A stretch of 64,000 nt of DNA from Naumovozyma dairenensis CBS 421. Its lineage: Eukaryota > Ascomycota > Saccharomycetes > Saccharomycetales > Saccharomycetaceae. This document shows positions 690 through 23,143 of the stretch, in pieces (position 1 is the first letter of the stretch; each line of letters begins with the position of its first letter). The position numbers and the translations under genes were made by a program. The stretch covers positions 620,001 to 684,000 of the forward strand of contig NC_016484.1 in assembly GCF_000227115.2 (NCBI RefSeq), given 5' to 3'. Below the pieces are notes generated by a model. It ran no database searches. It saw only the letters and a list, made by a program, of their open reading frames with translations, and was not told the origin of the DNA.

Positions 690-3600
690 TCAGAAATGTA
701 CTGAGCCAGTAAGCTTCTTTTCGACACCTTTCACAATACCGGTTCTCAACCTTACTTGTCCTTCATCCATCATCTTACCGATCGTTACCACACTTGTATT
801 CAGAACAGTAGTACCTGCCCTTATCCCAGTATCGATACCCTTCTGAGCAAGATCTCCAATATTATTCTTAGATCGTTTTTGAACCCCTAAAGTATATCGT
901 GGGCTAAAGGTGAATTCAAGTTGTAAGAAACCACCTTTGTCTTCTTTTTCAGTAACAATTGGAACTTCTAATTTCGTCAATGCTGCTGGATCAATCTGAG
1001 ATAGGGGCAACATTGCCCATCCTAATAGATCATTCGAAAGTGCGCCATCCCAATCTACAACTTTGAACTTTATAAATGTATTGACTCGGTCATTGATTTG
1101 TAATGTTGTGGACTCATTCCAAACTGGATTCAATGTCTTTTTCGAAATTTTGGTCTTGAAAAATGATTTTTCATTATTATTCAGATATAATTTGACATAA
1201 GGATCAGAATATCCATTCCTGTCACCTGCTATCAGGTCATTAGCTCCCTTAATAGTAATAGTCAAATCACCGGTATTCGTTATTAAATCTGAAAGTGGTA
1301 ACTTCGTAACATGCAATGGGAAGTATGACACTTGGACCATCAATTTGGCAGTTGATATCCCTGAAAGATTCAATATACATGGTTCTCTATAACAATTGTT
1401 TATCAATTCAATAGTAGGAATTACAAATTCACTAATACCCACTTCAGCTTTGTTTAGACTTTTATTTTTAACAACTTTGAATGTTGTAACAGACCATTCT
1501 AGTTCTTTGATCGTTGCTTCACCTATCCAACCTGTTTTAATAGTTCTGATGGAACATTTCGGACTGATTATACTGGCATGACCAAGTGAATCCAAAAATG
1601 TTTGCACATAAAGACCGGGGAATGGTAATTCACCGCCTTGAACAGAAATGGTTAAGATTCCTGAAGGATATTGTATCAATTCATTTAAATCCAATTTCAT
1701 CTTATTACTGAATATATCTTCTAATTCATGGATTTCACACTCTTCATCCAATATTCTTTCCTTTAGTTCCTTGGATTCGGTTAGAGGATCAAGTGATGCT
1801 TTCTTTTGCAACAACTGTCTTCTCCTTTCCCTCACTTTCTCAAGATCTTCGATTTCTTCGCGAGTTAAAATCGGTAATGACGGATAAAAGGAAATATAGT
1901 ATGTAATTTCCCCACTAAGCCCTTTACGAGTAGTTAATTGTGAGCTTATAGCATTTTCATTAATGAACTCTTCGTATCTGTCATCATCCCCTTTTCGTAG
2001 TAGTCCACGTGGTGATATTTCTAATTGCCCCAATGAACGATCTCCCCCAATCAACCTAGAATCCATACATTCAAGAAGTATCTTTTGATTAGGCGAAGTA
2101 ATTGCCACATATATTGCTTGATTCCATATTGGGTTTAATTCATTTAACAGCTCATTTGTTCTACCAATCTCCAGATCATTAGTTAGAACTCTCGTGTAAG
2201 GATTAACCTCCATTATTTTATCCACATTATTGGTGAACTTTGCCTTATTAATCAATATACGGACAGTACCAATTGGTGCTGTATATATGGTGCCCTTCCC
2301 ATATAAACCTAACTCTACCGGTTTCCAGTATGTCATAATTTTCAAATCGCCCACACCGTTTTTCAAAGGTATGATATCTTTACTCATACTAGTTCTATCA
2401 ATTAACGCATTTAGATTTTGTACCGAAGAAGAGATAATTTGACTTTTTTTATCTTTGATAACAAACTTGCATCTAGTCATACTTCTATCAAGAATGATGG
2501 ACTCATACTGTGATTTCCATCGCCAATTATCCACACCAGATACCTTCTTTGTAGTGAAGACCTTCTTGGCATTGATGTAGAGCTCAACGTATGTATCGAA
2601 CTTTTTCTCAATTTCGTTGATTAACCTACTTTCTTGGATAACTATCTTTGCTAACCCAGTATTTAAATCAGGGATTTCTTCAACCTTCCCGTTTGGCAAC
2701 TTCTTTTGTTCTAAGACTGGACGGAAATGTAAATCAAAGTGTAAATACCCAATAGATTTAGAGTTTTTCAAAATGGGACTCTTTAAACGTTTCTGATGAG
2801 GTCGATGACGTAAAGAATTTAAATTGAATTCAATGCCACCTAAATTTTTATCTTTCAATGTTTTGTGTTTGTCAAAAAGTATGACTGATAATGGTTCTGT
2901 AAATGATTTGATCGGTATATGGACGACTTCGTGCCATATTGGGCTATTTGGATCTTTAGAAGCTGATGTTTTAGCTATGACTCGGTTCGAAAAAAGAAAT
3001 GAGACATATGGATGCCCTGGTTTTCCTAAGAGCTCGCCAAAATTTCTCTTGAAGCCTTTCACAGCTTTAACATTAATTTCCAGAATACCAATAGAGGTTG
3101 CCGAACCAGAGAGTAACTGTGGTAAGTTTAATTGTAATGAAAATGGAGGAAGCAATATTTCCGACATATATTTGTAAGCCATTTTGTTTGCCAGAGTTAG
3201 AAAACCCGGTAGAGTCAGAAGATCCATATTGAAAACAGATATATTAAATAATGATGCAATAAAATCTACATTTGGTACTTTCAATAATTGAATATTGATT
3301 GTTTCTATAATAGGTAATGCTGCCATCAATTGAAATTTTAACCTTGCCTTTATGTCAATTGCAAGGTCAGAAAGTGTCATTGGTAGTATAACCCCCATTA
3401 CATTGATCTTCAGTAGCACTTTTGAATTTACGAAATTTCTAACTTGCCTTGCATTCATATCAGCTTGGTCATGCGGTGTAAAGGATACATTCCAATCCAT
3501 AACTACGACATCTAAATGTGTATTTTGTAATGTTTTTACATACCCAATCCTAGGAGGTTTTATTCCCAATGTGAATTCGTCAATCCATATAGCCTTTATC

Positions 3601-4229
3601 CATTTTGGGATAGACATATTTGAAGCCAACTGTCCGTTGACCTGCGTAACTATTTTCTGAGACAAGGATGGTTCTAAAATAGGCCAATACTTTACGAATA
3701 ACAAGTTCGCCCATTCGACAGATTCGTAATCGTCTTCTATTTTTTCAACAGCTGATTCCTTCTCGATGAGTTCCCTAATACTGGACCTATAACCCTTAAT
3801 TAATGCTCTATAAACCAATGCTGCGGCAACAGCAATTAAATAGACTGGTGCAAACGAGAATTTGAAGTACCCTAAAAGAAATGAAGAAAATCCAGCAATT
3901 ATAAAGAGCAGTATTGGATGGTACCATTTACCGTAGAATTTATCAGGAATAATATTATCTAAGAAAGTGTCCTCATTTAACTCAAATAGCGAATCATATT
4001 CCCCTAGAGAGTCAACTTCCTCCCACCCCCCTATCTGTTTCCAACCGACATAGGACGCTACTCTACTAAAATGAGATTGGTTTACAGTAGAAGTCATCGG
4101 TGGTTTATTATAAGCCGCAACACCTTCAGAACTTTCTTCTTTGACCTCGATAGTAGACAGATTCCCAGGGATCAACTCTGCTTTAGTGTTCGACGGAGCA
4201 CTTTGCTTTTTGTAGTCATTAGGTGACAT
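690..4229 (-). CDS. TCB2: Tricalbin, ER-plasma membrane tether (TCB1/TCB2 type)
   Basis: The 1179-residue protein nearly equals S. cerevisiae Tcb2 (1178). Tricalbins are ER proteins that tether the ER to the plasma membrane and carry lipids. In order: a conserved PSYVGWKQ-like segment (SYVGWKQIGGWEE, residues about 58-71); a hydrophobic hairpin around 103-143 (ILLFIIAGFSSFLLGYF then a second hydrophobic stretch); an SMP lipid-transfer domain about 168-370 (ESVEWANLLFVKYWPILEP at its start); then several C2 domains. The last C2, near residue 1000, keeps Ca-binding loop features (GDRNGYSDPYVKL and VVDWDGALSND). The ATG at 4227-4229 is the first in frame. TCB1 and TCB2 are WGD duplicates, and gene order beside TOP2 favours TCB2. 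Confidence 0.92.
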   Translation of the reverse strand: MSPNDYKKQSAPSNTKAELIPGNLSTIEVKEESSEGVAAYNKPPMTSTVNQSHFSRVASYVGWKQIGGWEEVDSLGEYDSLFELNEDTFLDNIIPDKFYGKWYHPILLFIIAGFSSFLLGYFKFSFAPVYLIAVAAALVYRALIKGYRSSIRELIEKESAVEKIEDDYESVEWANLLFVKYWPILEPSLSQKIVTQVNGQLASNMSIPKWIKAIWIDEFTLGIKPPRIGYVKTLQNTHLDVVVMDWNVSFTPHDQADMNARQVRNFVNSKVLLKINVMGVILPMTLSDLAIDIKARLKFQLMAALPIIETINIQLLKVPNVDFIASLFNISVFNMDLLTLPGFLTLANKMAYKYMSEILLPPFSLQLNLPQLLSGSATSIGILEINVKAVKGFKRNFGELLGKPGHPYVSFLFSNRVIAKTSASKDPNSPIWHEVVHIPIKSFTEPLSVILFDKHKTLKDKNLGGIEFNLNSLRHRPHQKRLKSPILKNSKSIGYLHFDLHFRPVLEQKKLPNGKVEEIPDLNTGLAKIVIQESRLINEIEKKFDTYVELYINAKKVFTTKKVSGVDNWRWKSQYESIILDRSMTRCKFVIKDKKSQIISSSVQNLNALIDRTSMSKDIIPLKNGVGDLKIMTYWKPVELGLYGKGTIYTAPIGTVRILINKAKFTNNVDKIMEVNPYTRVLTNDLEIGRTNELLNELNPIWNQAIYVAITSPNQKILLECMDSRLIGGDRSLGQLEISPRGLLRKGDDDRYEEFINENAISSQLTTRKGLSGEITYYISFYPSLPILTREEIEDLEKVRERRRQLLQKKASLDPLTESKELKERILDEECEIHELEDIFSNKMKLDLNELIQYPSGILTISVQGGELPFPGLYVQTFLDSLGHASIISPKCSIRTIKTGWIGEATIKELEWSVTTFKVVKNKSLNKAEVGISEFVIPTIELINNCYREPCILNLSGISTAKLMVQVSYFPLHVTKLPLSDLITNTGDLTITIKGANDLIAGDRNGYSDPYVKLYLNNNEKSFFKTKISKKTLNPVWNESTTLQINDRVNTFIKFKVVDWDGALSNDLLGWAMLPLSQIDPAALTKLEVPIVTEKEDKGGFLQLEFTFSPRYTLGVQKRSKNNIGDLAQKGIDTGIRAGTTVLNTSVVTIGKMMDEGQVRLRTGIVKGVEKKLTGSVHF

Positions 4230-17108: not shown

Positions 17109-17550
17109 TCACTCTATATCCTTTGTACCTTGAAGACAAACCTCCAAAGCAACACCTGGTTCCATAAAGAATAACAATTTAGGTTTTATAAAATTATCCG
17201 TATTATTTCCCATAGTATCATGATCATGAAGGTTATTCAATTTTTCAATTCCGACGCATACACGACGTTTCCAATTTTCTGCCTTGGTATCAACAAATCC
17301 GGTTGCCGTGGTGGTGGTGGTGGTTTGAAAATTACCATAATCATCTTGACTTGATGGCAATTGATATCCAGATTCTTCAATCGATGACGATGACGATAAA
17401 AAAGATGACGATGACGAGAGTGAGCTACCATTGGTACTAGTATTTGATATCGTTACATTCAATGCTGCCTCTGAGGATGATGATGTATTTCTTGGTGTTG
17501 GGATAGGTGGTGGTGGTGGCCGAGATCTCAGTTTTGAACTTGCCGGTCTT

Positions 17551-17584
<34 letters not shown>

Positions 17585-19250
17585 CATTTGTTGTAATGAT
17601 ATTGTTTGGTCCTCTTCTTGACAGCTGTATCATTTCCTTTTGTTTAGGGGACAATTCAATATTTTTCCTTGATGGAACTACAGGCGGTATTAATGGACTT
17701 GACCTACGAGGAGGACTGATGTTGTTATTTGTGGATTCAGATATTTTTGTGTCCTTTTTTAATGTTTTCCCTGGTTTAGGATGATAATTCTCCTTCAGTA
17801 TATCATTTATATCATTCATAACTTTTTCTTCATGTGATCTTTCACCAGAATCGCTTAATGAATTACTACAACATCGAATATAAATACCTGCGATTTGTTC
17901 AGGGAAAGTCATTGCAATGGAAATATAAGCTTCAAAATCCATTTCACCTGAATCACCCACTAGTATAAATTTTTTCTTTGGGAAATCATTCAAGATATTA
18001 GTTATTGGTTGTAATTTCCTATTTGCGCTTGAAGTCATTAAACTTGCTAAGAAATTCCCTGAATATTGTTTTAAAAATAATGGACCATCAGGATAATTCC
18101 CCGTAATGAACTCCTGTAAGATGGGGAACATTTGTAATGGTGAATTTGATACATAAAAGAAGTCCGCATTTTTAATATCTCTCAAAGTGTTATACCATAA
18201 TGGCATCCCATCAATTAGCCATGATTTTATATCGTGTATGAAGACGTTTCTAAACATTGATCTTCTATCTCCTGTGATACCTGTATGTTTAATTGTATCA
18301 TCAATATCACTTATTAATCCGATACCTCCTTGTTTAATTAGATTGATTGGATACTCTATTTTGAGTGGTTCATCCTTACTTGTTGTTGTTGTTGTTATTG
18401 TTGGTGCTGCTGCAGGAATATTATCAATTGAGATGATAATGTTCCTAGGATTGAATTTAGTTGGTAACTTCTTTTTTTGTCTAATGTTTCCTGATTGATC
18501 TGTTATTTCATGTAATTTCAAATAATCTCTTTGAGGGTCATTTCCGATTAATTCTATTGTTAGTGGGATACCTATAATTCTTCTAGCGAAGAACCCTGAA
18601 ATTCTTTTTTGCAATACTTGTACTTCATCCATGGGTGCATTATTGATATTATTCTCTCGTGTAGTTATAGTCCCTGTTAGTGGTAGTGGTTGAGGTGTAG
18701 GTGTATATGAAGGTTGGGAGTTTATAGTCAAGTCATCATTATCTTCTTCTTCTTCATTGTTAGTATTATTTTTGTTGTTGTTGATCGCTATTGAATTGTT
18801 AATATTATTGTTATTAGTTTTCAAATATTGTCCACATAATTTCAAAATGAATCTATTTTTCCTACTTGCTTGATTTCCCGGAGTATATACATTGAATCTT
18901 ATGAATGTTTGTAATGATTGTATTTGATAATTCCATGTAGTGTATGTGGGATAACATTGAAATTTCAGATCTTTTGGCCATAATTGTTGTGTAGTAACAG
19001 CATTATTATTATTATTACTAGTAGTAGTAGATAGAGAAGGTGAAGTAAGACCATTCCTCAATGAGTCATTAACATTTGTTGCTGATTCAAATTGTTGTGA
19101 TATTGTTGATTTTAAGTTTGGAATATAGACTTCTCTTGTATTCTTCATAAGGTTATAAAATCTTTGACGTTTATTCATCGTTGTTGTTGTTTCGCTATTA
19201 TTTCGTACTATTCCTGCATCTTCCTCTTTATCACGATGTGTATTATCCAT
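17109..19250 (-). CDS. APP1: App1, actin-patch phosphatidate phosphatase
   Basis: The open frame starts at 19454 without an ATG; the first in-frame ATG is at 19248-19250, giving 713 residues (S. cerevisiae App1: 587). App1 is a Mg-dependent phosphatidate phosphatase of cortical actin patches. The HAD-type DxDxT motif is intact as DIDDT at residues 315-319, within GLISDIDDTIKHTG, followed by DRRSMFRNVFIHD, YVSNSPLQMFP, FLKQYSGNF and LVGDSGE. The C-terminal part is Pro-rich (PPPPPIPTPR), the type of site bound by SH3 proteins of the patch. Extra length comes from Asn/Thr-rich insertions around residues 80-230 and 540-620. Neighbour order (NST1 side to YNL095C-like side) matches chromosome XIV. 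Confidence 0.94.
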
Positions 19251-20307
19251 TGTGTTATTTTTGTTCCTCTTCAATTTTTTATAACGATTCGGTTTCAATT
19301 TCTGTAATGATATAGATCTTTTCGTTTGAAGTGGTAGTACATAAATACTATTTGTAATTAGAGGTGGTAACAAACCGACAATGGGTATCTTAATTATTCC
19401 GATAATTTTTTTGAGAATATATGTTAAATAATACGAGGAATTTTTGGAATCCAATCAATGGAAAAGGGAGCCTTTTTTTTTCCTTCCAGTTAGCGATGTG
19501 TAATTTTCTTTTTCCTGTATCTTGTTTTCAGGATATCAATGTTTCATTAAAAAGATACAAATTAAGTTTATGCTATGGTAAAGACTGTGTAGTTATTTCC
19601 CATTCGATTGTTCTATTGCTTGTTTCAAGACTAGAGCCCACTATTTGTACTACCCAAGGATATAAGATCCGCAGCCATCCATCCATCCTTTCTTTATAGC
19701 TTTCTTAAAGGTGTATACCGTTAATTTCCTTTCTTCCTTCTAACCCGGCGGACATTTTTTTTCTACCCTCGGGTGCTATACGGATACCTCGCTTGTTATT
19801 ATTTACATTTCAGCGGTGGTACAGTATGTAGTTCTATTGTTTATATATATATATACTAATATTCTACAAGAGGAGGAGGCCAAATTAAGCAGCATAATTG
19901 TGATGGTGTGGCTGCGCTAGAACCATGGGGGGGGCCTCTGCTTCTGTTACTCTACCTGAGAGTTATCAGTGTGCTCTTGAGTTCTCAGGTTGTTTGCATT
20001 GATATTTTTGTCGTTATGTAGTAGCGTATATATGTTGATTCACTATATCTCTTTGTTGTTCGGTACTCTGTTATTCAGTTTATTTATATATGCAAGGAGA
20101 GTCTCTCTAATCTTCTATCTTATTACTTTGGATCCATTTATATATTCCACACAGCGGTTTAATTGAAAATGGGCTGATCGAAAACTACTTATGTTCGTTG
20201 ACTCACACAATAATATGCACGTGACATGGGTTATATATTAGAACGAACCGGCAGTTTCCAAGTAAAAAAGCGTTCCGCCATTAAGTCCCCATAATAGACC
20301 CCACATA

Positions 20308-20323
20308 CAGGCCTGGGACGGAT
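20308..20323 (+). repeat. Left terminal inverted repeat of MITE candidate
   Basis: CAGGCCTGGGACGGAT, an exact inverted match to 20646-20661. Confidence 0.9.
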
Positions 20324-20645
20324 TAGGATTAATGGATTGAAAAAGCAAGGATTGGGCGTGAAAATGTTGAAAAAAAGGTAGGGTAGAAATCAAATATTAT
20401 GGATTGAGAACAGGGTTGGTCTATTCTGGCCATGGATTGGGGCATGGATTGAAAAAAAAAATTGAAAAATAGTAGTCGTATAATATGATTTTTATAGTAT
20501 TTTCTCATAAATTATATAATAAAAAAATGGATTGGATTAGGATAGACATTGGGTTAGGATAGGATTAGGATTGGGTTGAAGAATTTGGCGGGGATTAAAA
20601 AAAGGTAGGGTAGGCCCAAATTCCCTTAGGTAGACCAGAAATCCT

Positions 20646-20661
20646 ATCCGTCCCAGGCCTG
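20646..20661 (-). repeat. Right terminal inverted repeat of MITE candidate
   Basis: The reverse complement reads CAGGCCTGGGACGGAT, identical to 20308-20323 over 16 bases. Confidence 0.9.
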
Positions 20662-20949
20662 CTCACATATATAATAGCTGACTTGTGACAACGACGCGAG
20701 GGATGTCTCATCACGGGTTGTCTCCTCACAGATATGGACGGACGGACGTAGTACGGAAACCGTAAACCGGAAACCGGAAACCGGAGACAGAGACAGAGAC
20801 AGAGACGGGGAGGGTTTTCCGTTTCCTTTTGGCATTGTGTATCTTTTTTTTTTGTTTAGGCTCAGCCGCATCTCCTGGGAAGCCGTCCCTGTGTCCATAT
20901 TCTATATTCTATATATAGCTTCCACTCAGTAAAGGATATACAGTAAGGG

Positions 20950-21193: not shown

Positions 21194-23143
21194 ATGTCAA
21201 TCTCAGTAGGACAAGCAATCTGGTCCTCTGTAAAACCAATAATAAAAATATACCTAATCATCGGTGTAGGGTTCCTCCTTGCAAAATCTGCCATCTTAAC
21301 AGTCGAAGCAACAAGAACAATATCAGACATAGTCCTAACAGTCCTATTACCATGTTTAGCGTTCAATAAAATAGTAGCAAATATCGAAGGTAATGATATA
21401 AAATCAGTAGGGATAATCTGTCTAACATCATTGTTGATCTTCGGTACAGGTGTCTTCTTCGCATACCTAGTGAGGAGATTATTATGGGTCCCGAAACAAT
21501 GGAATGGCGGAATATTAGCAGGTGGGATGTTCCCCAATATTAGTGATTTACCAATCGCATATTTACAAACAATGGATCAAGGTTTCATTTTCAGTCCAGA
21601 TGAAGGTGAGAAGGGAGTAGCGTCTGTCATTATCTTTTTAGCCATGTTCTTAGTTTGTTTGTTTAACCTTGGTGGGTTCCGATTGATCGAAATGGATTTC
21701 GAATATAAAGATGAAGAAAGTCAAATCACCCAGGATGAAATACATTCGTCAACTATGCCCTCTTTACAAGACTCGACAACGAATAATTCGAATGGAAGTA
21801 ACCATCCTGTGGTTTGTTCACTAGGAGACGAGAGGGAGAAGCAAATTTCAAATCATACTAGTAATGAGAGTAGTACACTTTCCAAGAGTGCATCTTCTAT
21901 TCAACAAGATGATTTGGATGTCAACAATAATACAGCAATTGGATCTTCTAAACACGAACCCATGAATGAAACCAATGATTTAGGTCTACTCAATGGAAAT
22001 TCAAAACATATGGACGGTGATGAAGAAAGTGTTCTAACACAAGAAAGTAGTACAACTACAACTACAAATAATAGTTTACATACAATCGAATCCTCAATAT
22101 CTTCCATACCTTCCATCCCTGATACCATACCTTCAGATATTAATAACAATAACAATAATAATACTATGAATAACCCTAATTTATCATCCACAAGACAAAG
22201 AAGTCAACCAATAGCATTTACACAAAATAATAGTAGCCTTACACAACAACTCACAGATAGTAGTATAACAAGTGGTACACAATTGAGACCAATAAGATCA
22301 CTTGATATGAGAAGTTTACCCTTACAAAATATGAATGACCTAATACGTGAATATTCCAACGTTGATCAATATGGGAACCCAACACCATCAATTCAAGATC
22401 AAACTCCCATTGAATCACAAACAATGTTACAACGTGTACGATCATCTAATCTAACAAAGATTTTAACCTCTGACGCAACAGTAAGTAGAAACGATATCAG
22501 TGAATCAGGTACATCATTACCTAAATGGATTCAAAAATTTCCCCTAACACCATTATTAGTCTTTTTTCTAAAGAATTGTTTAAGACCATGCTCCATTGCG
22601 GTCATTTTATCACTCACAATTGCCTTCATACCATGGGTAAAGGCATTATTCGTCACAACACCAACGACACCTATAATCAATCAAGCTCCTGATCAACAAC
22701 CAGCCTTAAGTTTCCTAATGGATTTCACCGCATACGTTGGAGCTGCATCTGTCCCATTCGGATTAATCTTATTAGGTGCCACTTTGGGTAGATTGAAACT
22801 AGGTAAATTATACCCAGGATTTTGGAAATCTGCTTGCGTATTGGTATTCTTAAGACAATGTATCATGCCAATATTTGGTGTCCTTTGGTGTGATAGATTA
22901 GTGAAGGCAGGTTGGTGTAATTGGAAAGATGATAAGATGTTACTTTTCATAATCGCATTAAGTTGGGATTTACCTACAATGACTACGTTGATTTATTTTA
23001 CCGCAAGTTATACTCCTCCTGATGTGGTACAACCTATTCAAATGGAATGTGTTTCCTTCTTCTTACTAATTCAATATCCTTTGATGGCTATAAGTATGCC
23101 ATTTTTAGTTACTTATTTCTTAAAGGTTCAAATTGGAATATGA
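21194..23143 (+). CDS. ECM3: ECM3/YNL095C-family membrane transporter (auxin-efflux-carrier fold)
   Basis: The frame is open from 21113, but the first ATG is at 21194 (MSISVGQAIW), giving 649 residues. The family (S. cerevisiae Ecm3 and Ynl095c, a WGD pair) belongs to the bile-acid/auxin permease-like transporters; substrate and exact role are unknown. An N-terminal bundle of about five membrane segments spans residues 10-175 (IYLIIGVGFLLAKS, ISDIVLTVLLPCLAFNKI, IICLTSLLIFGTGVFFAYLV). A Ser/Asn/Thr-rich loop of about 250 residues follows, then a second bundle at about 450-645 including SVPFGLILLGATLGRL. The strand agrees with YNL095C and with ECM3 in its sister block, so I cannot decide which duplicate survived; the symbol marks the family. 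Confidence 0.85.
   Translation: MSISVGQAIWSSVKPIIKIYLIIGVGFLLAKSAILTVEATRTISDIVLTVLLPCLAFNKIVANIEGNDIKSVGIICLTSLLIFGTGVFFAYLVRRLLWVPKQWNGGILAGGMFPNISDLPIAYLQTMDQGFIFSPDEGEKGVASVIIFLAMFLVCLFNLGGFRLIEMDFEYKDEESQITQDEIHSSTMPSLQDSTTNNSNGSNHPVVCSLGDEREKQISNHTSNESSTLSKSASSIQQDDLDVNNNTAIGSSKHEPMNETNDLGLLNGNSKHMDGDEESVLTQESSTTTTTNNSLHTIESSISSIPSIPDTIPSDINNNNNNNTMNNPNLSSTRQRSQPIAFTQNNSSLTQQLTDSSITSGTQLRPIRSLDMRSLPLQNMNDLIREYSNVDQYGNPTPSIQDQTPIESQTMLQRVRSSNLTKILTSDATVSRNDISESGTSLPKWIQKFPLTPLLVFFLKNCLRPCSIAVILSLTIAFIPWVKALFVTTPTTPIINQAPDQQPALSFLMDFTAYVGAASVPFGLILLGATLGRLKLGKLYPGFWKSACVLVFLRQCIMPIFGVLWCDRLVKAGWCNWKDDKMLLFIIALSWDLPTMTTLIYFTASYTPPDVVQPIQMECVSFFLLIQYPLMAISMPFLVTYFLKVQIGI

Follow-up and report, generated by a model that had tools for sequence, protein, structure and literature searches.

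A 354-bp element of Naumovozyma dairenensis CBS 421 is, with very little doubt, a non-autonomous MITE, derived within the N. dairenensis lineage from a hAT transposon that lost its interior. It lies in a stretch of 64,000 bp (the window), and the MITE reading offered for it by the first-pass annotation is borne out by further copies in the genome, by target-site duplications and by a larger element with the same ends. It belongs to a genuine family of hAT-type MITEs, the kind being one already known. The features of the window that bear on it are as follows (window coordinates).

17109..19454, minus strand: APP1-type phosphatidate phosphatase gene, a neighbour outside the element (PF09949, 176.3 bits)
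20300..20307, no strand: left copy of the target-site duplication, CCCACATA (flank comparison)
20308..20661, plus strand: hAT MITE, 354 bp (inverted ends, and matches to genome copies and to the 4,018-bp element)
20308..20323, plus strand: left terminal inverted repeat, CAGGCCTGGGACGGAT, 16 bp (exact inverse at the right end)
20308..20518, plus strand: counterpart of bases 1-211 in the 4,018-bp element, 82% identity (alignment, C6:640308-640518)
20332..20455, plus strand: left-half subterminal direct repeats, ATGGATTG type, with copies at 20332, 20399 and 20444
20428 and 20440, plus strand: repeat pair related to the ATGGATTG-type repeats (repeat and motif counts)
20519..20521, no strand: internal-deletion junction, three bases between the matched segments (alignment to the 4,018-bp element)
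20522..20661, plus strand: counterpart of bases 3879-4018 in the 4,018-bp element, 89% identity (alignment, C6:640522-640661)
20529..20571, plus strand: right-half subterminal repeats, GGATTAGGAT type (repeat listing)
20646..20661, minus strand: right terminal inverted repeat, 16 bp (the left repeat inverted, exact)
20662..20669, no strand: right copy of the target-site duplication, CTCACATA (equal to the left copy at seven of eight positions)
21194..23143, plus strand: ECM3-family membrane transport protein gene, a neighbour outside the element (PF03547; homologues named ECM3)

The exact inverted 16-mers bounding 354 bp and the flanking 8-mers, seven of eight positions alike, had both been described in the first-pass annotation, and both were found again when rechecked in the sequence. 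The hAT superfamily has short terminal inverted repeats that frequently begin CAG or TAG; those of the MITE measure 16 bp and begin CAG. Searched with up to three mismatches, the 16-mer matches the window at the two MITE ends and nowhere else, against a chance mean of 0.06, and two matches were reached in 0 of 100 dinucleotide shuffles. The whole window holds one pair of exact inverted 16-mers spaced 16-400 bp apart; of 20 single-base shuffles, one held one such pair and 19 held none. The window copy differs from the family consensus by 2.8% and its two duplications by one base, and is therefore not a very recent insertion.

Further copies with the same ends had been named as support for the reading, and at least 21 end-to-end copies (bases 1-354) are present in the genome. 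They are among at least 43 pieces that match the MITE, a minimum figure in that the scoring covered 40 of the 55 candidates; the 22 partial pieces, some of which are two halves of one element, are excluded from the copy counts. As expected of MITEs, the copies are short, non-coding and similar in length: they measure 323-360 bp, and none of the 21 overlaps an open reading frame of at least 100 aa. All except L024 (77%) and L028 (75%) are more than 90% identical to their consensus, and among these 19 the mean pairwise identity is 92.9% (range 87.3-98.6%). The top pairwise identity, 98.6%, gives no hint of a burst in the very recent past. Genome-wide, the 16-mer end finds 93 matches at up to three mismatches, compared with seven for a reversed control pattern. 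An exact 16-mer scan of viral contigs gave one match apiece in four contigs, which we take as chance.

The duplications at other copies are specific to one width. At width 8 the duplication is perfect in 11 of the 21 copies and has at most one mismatch in 15, so that the 8-bp duplication of hAT elements is present at the level of the family, as had been proposed from the window copy. No copy has a perfect duplication at widths 6, 7, 9 or 10, and at width 9 two have one with up to one mismatch. When flanks were paired across different copies as a control, 0 of 420 pairs were perfect and four of 420 had at most one mismatch. The six copies without an 8-bp duplication (at most one mismatch, exact ends) are L003, L004, L005, L012, L017 and L028. 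Two of these, L003 and L017, do have one on visual inspection, a single base off.

Sites without the element were sought by joining the flanks of 20 of the 21 copies, minus one duplication, and matching them against the genome. Matches that span the junction were found elsewhere for three of the 20 (L011, L013 and L003). For L011 there are three places with a single target copy and no element, at C2:124670-124807 (95% identity), C4:97779-97918 (92%) and C3:14493-14620 (87%). These empty places hold one ATCGGGGA, and L011 itself has ATTGGGGA on each side of the element; its flanking repeats run unbroken through the insertion point, i.e. these are paralogous empty sites, found for one copy of the family. 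A fourth candidate place for L011 is a search match at C7:9131 (74%). At the C3 place an old MITE relative, L029, lies 14 bp away and not at the insertion point. The matches for L013 (74%) and L003 (79%) were set aside, their divergence being too great for a reliable call.

These observations bear on whether the family is a transposon at all. A dispersed repeat of another sort (solo LTR, subtelomeric repeat or satellite) with inverted ends by chance might be thought of, given that L011 lies 5 kb from a contig end and inside another dispersed repeat. Against such a repeat are the sharply defined ends, accompanied at most of the 21 scattered sites by 8-bp duplications, and the flanking repeats that are unbroken where the element is absent, and we give this reading practically no chance. 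The superfamily is a separate matter. The MITE could derive from some other superfamily with 8-bp duplications (P or Merlin, for example) and be like hAT at its ends by accident: 8-bp duplications alone are not diagnostic of hAT, and on the 4,018-bp copy the hAT dimerisation family PF05699 reaches 16.1 bits where its cut-off demands 21.4. We consider this very improbable, on the grounds that the 4,018-bp element contains pieces collinear with a 900-aa homologue and bearing the motifs SDDW, TTDN, CLGH, RW and SVNCERSFS, and that its RSF-like N-terminus belongs to a group placed in hAT in the excerpted text of PMC2675101. The hAT assignment of the first-pass annotation accordingly stands, on the 8-bp duplications and on the decayed hAT-type transposase of the larger element.

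That larger element, 4,018 bp long, is at C1:1704285-1708302 with flanks ACGACAAC and GCGACAAC. It has the same ends as the MITE and an interior of ~3.7 kb without counterpart in the window copy; in the alignment, the left end of the MITE corresponds to the element end nearest the transposase C-terminus. The suggested search for a full-length element with these ends and a hAT transposase frame thus had a favourable outcome, in an element with these ends whose hAT-type transposase is decayed. Five more elements with two related ends, ~1.6-2.2 kb long, have part of the interior missing; their sizes and number are approximate because two contain N runs and two on C8 are one segmental duplication. 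Of these shorter forms, that at C5:1092951-1094883 has a perfect duplication, ATTGGGAC, and that at C1:294435 has a flank match two bases out of place; duplications are missing from the three on C8. The C8 segments (L032 247-4302 and L037 2167-6216, ~157 kb apart) form an inverted duplication of ~4 kb at 95.5% identity that begins at the end of one larger element. Flanks of the C8 elements are common to different elements and not within one, as if recombined.

The left half of the MITE diverges by 17-20% from each larger element compared and the right half by 8-24%. This divergence exceeds that among most MITE copies; the direct parent was therefore not found, and the 4,018-bp element, judged by these alignments, is not it. 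A second group of hAT relics is also a possible source of transposase, because in one of its members, L045 (C3:123408), the left end resembles the MITE about equally well (81% identity over 115 bp); its hAT dimerisation region lies ~370 bp inside that end.

The transposase of the 4,018-bp copy is interrupted by frameshifts and stops. When its read-through pieces were joined and compared with proteins, the sole homologue among 7,991 scored candidates was P0121, a Maudiozyma exigua protein annotated as hypothetical and 900 aa long (identity 34%, query coverage 94%, E 5.9e-132). In the reverse direction, tblastn with P0121 finds collinear pieces in the 4,018-bp element that contain SDDWLS, TTDNCS, CLGHQ, IRWHI and SVNCERSFS, which we take to be the hAT catalytic (D, D, E; C..H) and C-terminal motifs. 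The D/D/E and C..H signature of hAT is on that assumption present in the broken frames. In P0121 itself, N and D replace H and E at two motif points. P0121 has 21 matches in the genome, and a relic at C7:535176 carries the same motif series as the 4,018-bp element. For a further relic, on C10, the search lists an open frame of 869 aa; the frames that we read there are interrupted, the longest joined one being ~360 aa.

The transposase had no match to a Pfam catalytic family. Genome-wide, PF05699 gave eight matches, of which four exceed the cut-off, all of them outside the 4,018-bp copy; by tblastn, six of the eight (L039, L040, L042, L043, L044 and L045) belong to the second hAT group. This group consists of relics with another C-terminal signature, such as SVNSERSF..GRYYGQNRHNLADETMESLLLIK. 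At C1:1613992 (L041) there is a long frame, 1,191 aa in the search output, of which 618 aa were read within the locus. Its hAT dimerisation match is weak, 21.8 bits in one search and 18.6, below the cut-off, in another. L041 may be a VID22-type domesticated gene; VID22 is named as a domesticated gene in the excerpted PMC2675101. One frame of the decayed transposase, with stops as X, had no match among proteins, and one transposase piece and P0121 had none in sequence searches of the PDB. An AlphaFold model of P0121 from the single sequence had a mean pLDDT of 32.8 and was unusable.

In composition, the MITE matches ~211 bp from one end of a larger element and 140 bp from the opposite end. A full-length relative would have supplied the transposase in trans; this enzyme, recognising the subterminal repeats together with the inverted ends, would have excised the element and reinserted it where the target strands were cut 8 bp apart. 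The genome stretches read hold no intact transposase of the MITE family, and the family is therefore probably no longer moving in CBS 421.

DNA transposons are scarce in this yeast family. Rover hAT MITEs were reportedly described in Lachancea by Sarilar et al. in 2014, whose abstract is said to mention remote Rover copies in N. dairenensis. The sequence of mar, a hAT MITE of Drosophila, presumably differs from that of the N. dairenensis MITE. Drosophila hAT MITEs such as mar are likewise short non-coding derivatives with terminal inverted repeats, in a different host (PMC3517528, in excerpt). The first-pass annotation regarded short hAT-type copies as little described in this clade, which needs qualifying: the excerpted text of PMC6025943 reports MITEs with Rover hAT elements in Torulaspora microellipsoides, also of the Saccharomycetaceae, where, likened here by description, they occur alongside intact and degenerate copies. 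The kind is already known because hAT MITEs have been reported in Torulaspora (PMC6025943) and, reportedly, in Lachancea. Roamer, a hAT family reported in Kazachstania saulgeensis (PMC5501885), is represented there by hAT pseudogenes in the same yeast family as N. dairenensis, and is again likened by description.

Also close by description are the RSF1-related hAT elements of N. castellii and Vanderwaltozyma polyspora, whose proteins of ~900 aa are reported in PMC2675101 (in excerpt). They are alike in protein size, in an RSF1-related N-terminus and in belonging to the same yeast family, and they occur in several copies at species-specific sites, as here. They differ in that the copies described are protein-coding, with short derivatives unmentioned in the excerpt, whereas those of N. 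dairenensis are decayed. No publication on MITEs in N. dairenensis was recognised among the matches listed, which does not imply absence from print. For this species, the present analysis describes a family of MITEs together with its shorter deletion forms and a larger, decayed element.

In the excerpted account of Gordon, Byrne and Wolfe (2009, PMC2675101), Saccharomyces RSF1 is a truncated, domesticated hAT element. The larger N. dairenensis element fits the RSF1-related hAT group, which links the MITE family to the transposon group reported there as the source of RSF1. With the RSF family PF14876 (cut-off 30.4), the 4,018-bp copy scores 32.8 and 31.8 bits over its N-terminal piece; in a genome-wide search the copy scores 29.0 bits, below the cut-off. 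Four of the eight genome-wide matches pass: two host genes, at C4:542204 (283.9 bits) and C6:1103551 (281.9 bits), the C10 relic (41.8 bits) and a relic at C3:125486 (37.7 bits). P0121, at 21.3 bits, is below the cut-off. The C10 relic is 87% identical in DNA to the 4,018-bp element, and the C3:125486 relic may belong to the second hAT group. Between one of the host RSF proteins and the C10 relic there is an alignment of 58 positions with 28% identity (E 5e-07).

The two host frames, L068 847-2289 (C4:542204, 480 aa) and L069 1279-2424 (C6:1103551, 381 aa), have an RSF domain and low-complexity stretches and are without the transposase core. They are 28% identical to each other over 239 aligned positions, which suggests old or separate domestications. 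The frame that follows the C4 gene resembles, we presume, ZPR1. About 210 bp downstream of the C6 frame, a fragment at C6:1104686-1105011 matches the 4,018-bp element over bases 2964-3289 with 90% identity. The N-terminal domains of P0121, L033, L047, L068 and L069 have a common C..C..H-x4-H pattern, with C-x10-C spacing in four of the five and a longer spacing in L068; the pattern presumably resembles a BED-type zinc finger, of unusual spacing.

The subterminal repeats of the MITE would presumably have been bound by the ancestral transposase. If the RSF proteins still recognise them, the MITEs would be ready-made sites for a domesticated transposase, and N. dairenensis would keep both halves of a regulatory circuit built from a transposon, the RSF genes and the MITEs as candidate sites. 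We regard this as a long shot. Should RSF-type proteins bind MITE ends, the yeast would be a tractable case of a transposon that supplied both a regulator and its sites.

As the first-pass annotation had it, the window copy lies between the APP1 and ECM3-family genes; the intergenic region is divergent, both genes pointing away from the element. N. dairenensis CBS 421 also has an ECM3-type paralogue, NDAI_0B04090 (C2). Co-option of some copies, this one included, as promoter elements, in line with the first-pass idea that the element could have brought regulatory sites, is unlikely. In its favour are the position of the window copy between two divergent genes, the lack of overlap between any of the 21 copies and a frame of at least 100 aa, and the 13 of 21 for which, on one side or more, the nearest frame of at least 100 aa within 1.5 kb turns its start side to the element (a raw count, with no control). 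Against it, selection against broken genes is expected to give the same placement. Compared with other positions, the motif sites of the left subterminal repeats are slightly better conserved (a value attained by 15 of 194 circular shifts), a weak effect, and those of the right are less conserved (93 of 123 circular shifts). The host-factor motifs TTAGGG and TTACCC are absent from the motif counts of the MITE. TAGGGT/ACCCTA occurs four times on both strands together (shuffle mean 0.44, maximum 6), inside the GGTAGGGTAG repeats.
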